This document shows positions 22,512 to 23,601 of a stretch of 64,000 nucleotides of DNA, one piece after another. Location of the stretch: assembly GCA_022821965.1 (NCBI GenBank), contig JAJECN010000022.1, positions 248,001 through 312,000 of the forward strand. The letters run 5' to 3'. The DNA comes from Candidatus Poribacteria bacterium. GTDB taxonomy: Bacteria; Poribacteria; WGA-4E; WGA-3G. A program made the position numbers and the translations under genes. The notes under the pieces are model-generated. The model had not been told where the DNA came from. It saw only the letters and a program-made list of their open reading frames with translations, and ran no database searches. Within the stretch, counting starts at the first letter, position 1; each line of letters starts with the position of its first letter.

Positions 22512-22614
22512 TTGTGAAACTGCTTCAAGCCCACCCTTTCTTCGTGTATAGATTACCTGACTCAGACGTTCATCGATAATAGTGAAGGTGTCCCGCTTTT
22601 CCACATAAAAATTG

Positions 22615-22655
22615 CTCCGCTGCTGGTGTGGTCTGAAACCGTGCCAACAGCGGAG
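22615..22655. terminator. Hairpin between convergent genes
   Basis: CTCCGCTG (22615-22622) pairs with CAGCGGAG (22648-22655), with three more pairs (TGG/CCA) after one mismatch, then TTTATTG. It lies between two convergent gene ends. Confidence 0.5.
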
Positions 22656-22680: not shown

Positions 22681-23526
22681 CTAAAAGGGGGAATCTTGAG
22701 TTTGTGCGGTTTCTGCCTGACCGTCATTGGAAGATACAGTTTCCTGATTCGCGGGTTCCTCAGATGCCGGAACGTCACTCTCCTGTGCAGCTGCCGTTAA
22801 TTGCTTAATACGTTCGCACAGTTCATCCAGCAACTTCGGTGCTGTTTCTGCTGCTTTCAGTTCAGCGGAAAGTTGGGTCCATTGCATTTCACTCATATCG
22901 TTCCGGGATTCTACACTGTATTTACGTTTGATGTAATTCCAGAGATCCGCCTTAGTAATGCCCTTCTCTCCAAGAGGTCCTTCCAGATTGTTCGCAATCG
23001 CGAAGGCAGCCTTCTGTGCGTTAGCGATATTTCCATCACTCTGTTGCGGCAGGGGTTGTTGTGTTGCATTACCACTCCCTGCTTTTCGGTGCAGATAGAA
23101 ATTCAGCACCTCACGGATAACCGGCACCGGTATTAACTGTTTAATTGCGTTACGTTGTGCTTTATGAATTGCTTTGGTGAAAGCGAACGGATCGGGACGG
23201 CTCCCAGCCATCTTTTGTTGTTCATACGCGCCATAGCGAGACGAACCCGTGATTGTATCAACAGCTTTGGCAGTCGCGATCCAAGAATGTTCGCGTTCCT
23301 CGTAATCGATTTCTTCAATCTGGATGCCACCACGACGGTTTGCGGCTTCGTTAATGCCCGCTAAGGTCAATCCCTCAACGGTGCGTCCGCCTTGTTTAAA
23401 GGAATAGACATAATCCTGAATCGTCTGCCCAGTCATCAATTCAATGATCGCCTGATCGTCCACCTGATCAACGACTTCATATTCAGCCGTAACCGGTACC
23501 ATTTCGTCCTTTTTTTCTTCAGCCAT
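22681..23526 (-). CDS. Unrecognised protein with SSB-like C-terminal tip, possibly a DNA-annealing factor
   Basis: This is 281 residues with CGGAGG six bases before the ATG. Residues 10-150 form one globular domain: VDQVDDQAIIELMTG, GLTLAGINEAANRRGG, WIATAKAVDTITGSSRYGAYEQ, then DPFAFTKAIHKAQRNAIKQLIPVP. A Gln/Asn-rich linker and a short helical domain (residues 165-235) follow. The last 40 residues are acidic and disordered and end in QDSPF, like the D-x-P-F tip by which SSB recruits repair proteins. The block with KAxxKAQRNAIxxLIP is reminiscent of phage and plasmid recombination proteins, but I cannot name a family. No phage genes surround it. Confidence 0.55.
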   Translation of the reverse strand: MAEEKKDEMVPVTAEYEVVDQVDDQAIIELMTGQTIQDYVYSFKQGGRTVEGLTLAGINEAANRRGGIQIEEIDYEEREHSWIATAKAVDTITGSSRYGAYEQQKMAGSRPDPFAFTKAIHKAQRNAIKQLIPVPVIREVLNFYLHRKAGSGNATQQPLPQQSDGNIANAQKAAFAIANNLEGPLGEKGITKADLWNYIKRKYSVESRNDMSEMQWTQLSAELKAAETAPKLLDELCERIKQLTAAAQESDVPASEEPANQETVSSNDGQAETAQTQDSPF

Positions 23527-23572
23527 AATATCCTCCGATTTCCAAACACATCAGATTTCTAAACATATAATT

Positions 23573-23601
23573 AGTATAACATATTTTTAGATATATATCA
23601 A
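23573..23601 (-). promoter_or_regulatory. Candidate promoter of the SSB-tip gene
   Basis: On the minus strand TTGATA (23601-23596), a 17-base spacer and TATACT (23578-23573) preceded by TGT. It lies about 47 bases before the start at 23526. Confidence 0.55.

Follow-up and report, generated by a model that had tools for sequence, protein, structure and literature searches.

The window analysed here, a stretch of 64,000 nucleotides from a Candidatus Poribacteria genome, carries on its minus strand a gene for a protein of 281 amino acids (22681..23526), which we annotate as a putative single-strand annealing protein gene. Its ATG-initiated reading frame, its conservation and its dN/dS mark it as a real gene. 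A ribosome-binding site, GGAGGA, is found just upstream of the start codon (23531..23536, minus strand), and a consensus scan places a promoter-like site, TTGATA-17-TATACT with a TG before the second hexamer, at 23573..23601 on the same strand. The preliminary description of this DNA had credited the gene with a promoter of its own. Such a site is indeed present, but it is weak by itself because the upstream region holds four promoter-like sites versus 2.3 expected. Behind the gene, at 22605..22655 (minus strand), lies a strong intrinsic terminator, consisting of a 12-bp hairpin followed by the U-run CAATTTTTAT (z = -5.0). The gene is a separate transcription unit, flanked by a TIM-barrel gene and a lipoprotein-like gene, neighbours that stand outside any phage context. 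Within the window no phage genes surround it, as had been stated before, and neither the window nor the gene order of the genus shows an exonuclease beside the chromosomal gene.

Orthologs, with identities of 52-98%, were found in 77 of the 98 genomes searched, and all 77 belong to one class of the Poribacteria, 82 genomes of which were included. The absence of the gene from the remaining five genomes of this class may represent real loss or incomplete assembly. It was not found in two genomes of other classes, nor in any other phylum of the 98-genome set; when 387 genomes were searched with a profile, a single further and distant relative came from a different phylum (G105, L179). This relative lies on a 3.4-kb contig (L179:33-2763), where its neighbour is a 553-aa protein resembling, by eye, Ro/TROVE-vWA proteins. 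In most genomes of the class the gene is present in single copy. Two adjoining copies are seen at L060:2476-4424, one of them having its N-terminus replaced and containing stretches of N, which is probably an assembly artefact, and a 143-kb contig of genome G038 (C1; L058, L124), possibly a plasmid or phage, carries a core-only copy of 170 aa with ~65% identity, as well as a second SSB ending in EDDIPF.

Gene order in the genus is largely kept, running TsaE, ABC transporter, (lipoprotein), the gene itself, TIM barrel and histidine kinase. These neighbours were not found at the examined loci of other orders and families, nor at two loci from other genera of the same family (L020, L022). The core of the protein is under strong purifying selection, with a dN/dS of 0.02-0.05; values for the C-terminal domain are ~0.04 where synonymous sites are unsaturated, and those for the tail are higher, about 0.18-0.34 where measurable. 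Presence in 77 of the 82 class genomes, conserved synteny in the genus and the low dN/dS of the core thus support the earlier suggestion of a chromosomally fixed gene.

AlphaFold2 models the full-length protein with a pLDDT of 81 and the core by itself with a pLDDT of 85.6 and a pTM of 0.79. The core, predicted to be an annealase fold, spans residues 20-131 (23134..23469, minus strand) and starts with an N-terminal helix followed by ββαβββα (E-E-H-E-E-E-H). In a Foldseek search of the PDB, lambda Redbeta ranks first for both models (E=2.2e-3 for the full length and 4e-4 for the core, probability 1.00), with modest fold scores, the TM-score of 0.46/0.41 being below the usual 0.5. RecT of Listeria phage A118 appears at rank 9 for the full length and rank 4 for the core, a match that is not significant alone. 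Furthermore, a search of BFVD gave 48 matches with E<=1e-3, of which the informative names are mostly Rad52/59/22, RecT, ERF, SAK3 and DNA single-strand annealing protein. The Rad52/Redbeta superfamily is characterized by a beta-hairpin and beta-sheet core followed by a helix (PMC11783212), and the model of the window protein has this arrangement at the level of the fold, given the modest TM-scores. The preliminary description had likened a block of the core, DPFAFTKAIHKAQRNAIKQLIPVP (residues 112-135 of the 281-aa protein), to phage annealing proteins, had proposed a comparison with RecT/Redbeta, Erf, Sak and Rad52 folds, and had named a fold unrelated to nucleic-acid binding as the outcome that would speak against it. 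The comparison instead returned Redbeta from the PDB and Rad52, RecT, ERF and Sak3 names from BFVD, in support of that likeness.

The core contains a signature helix, KAIHKAQRNA (residues 118-127; 23146..23175, minus strand). An alignment of 46 members, from Poribacteria, viruses and other sources, shows invariant residues at D23, G99, K118, K122, A123, R125, N126, A127 and P133. The sequence K118-A-I-H-K-A-Q-R125-N-A shares its K-to-R spacing with K154-A-M-I-Q-C-A-R161-L-A of Redbeta (K-A-x5-R-x-A), in which K154 and R161 are DNA-binding residues (PMC9512822). From the position of the helix, rather than from a residue-level superposition, we infer that K118 and R125 are the equivalents of K154 and R161. 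As such, the family has invariant basic residues, K118, K122 and R125, at places where contact with DNA would be expected, an equivalence that is positional.

At the level of sequence families, no credible match was found in Pfam, NCBIfam, PADLOC or PDB sequences; matches to Ribosomal_S5, transhydrogenase and GemA fell below threshold and were rejected. The Rad52_Rad22 and Sak3 (DUF1071) Pfam families gave no match, either with the window protein at E<=10 or with 23 members at E<=1. RecT (PF03837) and ERF (PF04404) likewise gave no Pfam match and no significant profile comparison, and in the Poribacteria genomes searched PF03837 and the ERF Pfam were not found at all. Similarity to Redbeta profiles was not significant either, with hhalign giving P=0.033 and a probability of 1.5% against Redbeta alone and P=0.19 against a two-sequence Redbeta alignment. 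The same was true for the C-terminal domain against the tails of Redbeta and RecT/ERF, the small RecT, Redbeta and ERF alignments making all of these weak tests. A weak match to the core is shown by phrog_3657, found with 22 of 23 members of the family (best E=7e-5) and also with the viral relatives L139 and L140. This group, to which PHROGs assigns no function, probably belongs to the same superfamily, the relation being at the edge of detection. Since the placement is based on fold, context and motif, and profile comparisons are not significant, we assign the protein to the superfamily and not to any named family.

Downstream of the core, residues 163-250 (22777..23040, minus strand) form a helical C-terminal domain whose conservation is apparent from the alignment, the AlphaFold2 model and dN/dS. 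It is followed by an acidic, disordered and variable tail that lacks K and R (residues 251-281; 22684..22776, minus strand) and closes with the SSB-like tip DSPF (residues 278-281; 22684..22695), just as the preliminary description had read it. Among 60 distinct orthologs, 42 end in PF and eight in LF, and 54 end in F of any kind. When all long ORFs of these loci are taken, 391 with the orthologs included, 44 end in PF and 62 in F, and since the ORFs other than orthologs supply only about two of the former and eight of the latter, the ending is preserved beyond chance. Moreover, the linker before the tip varies among orthologs while the terminal F stays, which answers the earlier concern that the C-terminus might not be conserved. 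A disordered acidic tail whose terminal PF is conserved beyond its linker is what characterizes the C-terminus of bacterial SSB, and one viral member of the family ends exactly in DDIPF, the ending of the sampled Poribacteria SSBs (EDDIPF in the window host). Unlike SSB, the family has no OB fold, and its tip varies (DSPF, EDPF, KAPF, DSLF). We found no signal of covariation with the tip of SSB, which stays DDIPF where orthologs at the level of the class end in DSLF or DDLF.

Relatives were also sought among the viral contigs of IMG/VR with a degenerate, hand-made DNA pattern of the signature helix, FAxxK[AV]hxKAxRNA. Divergent relatives are present in 23 non-redundant contigs, a count that leaves out three contigs duplicating others (L145, L143 and L197) and the match in L194, dropped as a false one in an unrelated protein of 1,328 aa. 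When the neighbouring ORFs are read by eye, 15 of the 23 contigs (L138, L139, L142, L144, L146, L147, L185, L186, L187, L189, L190, L192, L193, L196 and L199) have a nuclease-like gene adjoining the relative or within about 3.2 kb of it. The other eight show no such gene in the available sequence, several of them having short flanks. Most of the nuclease-like genes are recognisable PD-(D/E)XK exonucleases: among ten of the proteins tested with Pfam, seven pass the cut-off of PDDEXK_1 and two more match with scores under it; the tenth, that of L193, gives no match and was called solely by its likeness, by eye, to L199. PHROGs calls exonuclease in L187, L189, L196, L147 and L138, the nuclease of L142 is nearly the same as that of L139, and the calls for L185, L190 and L192 were made by eye. 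In L189, L190 and L193 an SSB gene follows, a neighbour typical of erf/rad52/sak3 modules (PMC8093625). This gene layout is that of phage exonuclease-annealase modules such as lambda exo-bet, and the pairing with an exonuclease and/or SSB holds for the viral relatives but not for the chromosomal gene itself. In L142, an SbcC/RecF-like ATPase that matches phrog_1499 (of unknown function) lies between the PD-(D/E)XK gene and the relative (L142:5407-9594), with a RuvC-like resolvase downstream.

When the window protein, two mobile relatives from Poribacteria and four viral ones served as tblastn queries against phage and plasmid records, no credible match emerged, and the viral relatives therefore appear to be uncultivated. 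Genome G017 holds a relative with 32% identity on its third contig (C3, loci L180-L183; 80 kb). The first part of this contig recurs at its end, some 66.8 kb further on, which would fit a complete circular phage genome. Terminase-like and other virion-type genes were recognised on the contig by eye, and it has one unusually long ORF of 4,113 codons. The relative in G073 lies near genes that by eye are DnaB-like, Hjc-like and serine-recombinase-like. Most viral relatives lack an SSB-like tip; the endings found among mobile relatives are DDIPF, DLPF, MPF, SNIPF (G017) and DEVPF (G073). The first three of these stand behind an extra C-terminal zinc ribbon, in L191:2018-2914, L195:4039-4863 and L200:265-1134, and the ribbon of L191 matches Zn_ribbon_recom (E=2.8e-6).

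In the tree, the chromosomal proteins and two divergent copies (L057 and L058) form one clade with a support of 99/92, inside which the branching is host-like. The viral protein L140 stands next to this clade (89/93), among viral lineages. The tree was midpoint-rooted, so that its root is arbitrary, and many of its deep branches are weak; for these two reasons we regard a viral origin of the chromosomal gene as no more than likely.

Taken together, we think it probable that the gene codes for a single-strand annealing protein that works without ATP and belongs to the Rad52/Redbeta superfamily, representing an undescribed family that was acquired long ago from a lineage associated with viruses and is now a stand-alone chromosomal gene. 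Its closest known counterpart is lambda Redbeta, with which it has in common the predicted fold, the spacing of the putative DNA-contact helix, a smaller helical C-terminal domain and, in the viral members, a place beside an exonuclease as bet adjoins exo. It differs in showing no significant sequence or profile similarity, in being fixed and solitary in bacterial chromosomes, and in carrying an SSB-like tip. To the RecT family it is linked through the fold match with A118 RecT, and to ERF, Rad52 and Sak3 through annotated viral members among the BFVD matches and the SSB gene beside some viral relatives, whereas family matches to any of these are lacking.

How might such a protein work? Monomers would oligomerise on single-stranded DNA through the beta-sheet core, with the basic helix K118-x3-K122-x2-R125 holding the phosphate backbone, and the core would then anneal complementary strands without ATP. 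The host genome encodes RecA, RecO and SSB, and PDDEXK_1 matches just two of its proteins, 1035 and 1157 aa long, which we take to be of the size of AddA/AddB-type enzymes; the single-stranded DNA would therefore come from host resection or from replication gaps. The helical C-terminal domain may contact partners, and the flexible acidic tail with its terminal PF could dock in the SSB-tip pockets of host proteins, RecO being one that is present, and so connect annealing with repair or with the restart of replication.

The protein could also have kept the annealase fold without annealing at present, and act as a recombination mediator or DNA-end binder whose PF tail recruits, or competes for, partners of the SSB tip such as RecO and RecJ. 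A solitary gene without an exonuclease partner, a tail resembling the SSB tip and the presence of RecA and RecO would fit such a role; the putative DNA-contact residues, however, are the most conserved ones and are common to the viral members that are paired with an exonuclease, and we consider this role rather unlikely. Somewhat more doubtful is an autoinhibitory tail, covering the basic DNA groove until single-stranded DNA or a partner displaces it, which would make the likeness to SSB a matter of convergence. The variable linker, the acidic character and the terminal hydrophobic anchor agree with this, but by itself it leaves unexplained why mobile relatives end exactly in DDIPF, DLPF or SNIPF, and it is compatible with docking rather than exclusive of it. 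We find it improbable that a small alpha/beta domain (dsRBD-like or NTF2-like), with some other role in binding nucleic acid or protein, resembles Redbeta here by chance. NTF2-like and dsRBD structures do come after Redbeta in the PDB list and TM-scores are low, but annealases dominate the BFVD annotations, the K/R helix agrees with Redbeta, and the exonuclease neighbours constitute independent evidence. Finally, a recently integrated prophage remnant, as the viral or prophage-borne relatives might suggest, is rejected as highly improbable in view of the single copy in most class genomes, the host-like branching within its clade, the synteny kept in the genus, the low dN/dS and the lack of phage genes nearby.

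None of Pfam, NCBIfam, PHROGs and PADLOC offers a functional assignment that covers the annealase family proposed here, and in the part of the literature covered we found no description of an annealase with an SSB-like tip. Annealases of the Redbeta, RecT and ERF types have been described chiefly in phages and prophages (PMC11783212 reports 90% bacterial or phage), and the C-terminal domain of Redbeta is thought to contact SSB; here the usual arrangement is reversed, in that the annealase itself bears an SSB-type tip. A structural screen listed 3,143 unannotated candidate annealases, so that further families are to be expected (PMC11783212). The unusual part is therefore not the existence of another family, but its fixation in a bacterial class together with the SSB-like tip. 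The viral branch adds unannotated, exonuclease-paired putative annealases, which are possible recombineering tools. For the Poribacteria themselves, single-copy presence in most genomes, vertical inheritance and strong purifying selection across the class suggest that strand annealing has a housekeeping role in bacteria also possessing RecA and RecO. Tentatively, a virus-derived annealase with its own docking tip may thus have become a core gene of the class, providing single-strand annealing repair besides RecA, and would be the bacterial equivalent of Rad52, brought in through the pockets that bind the SSB tip.
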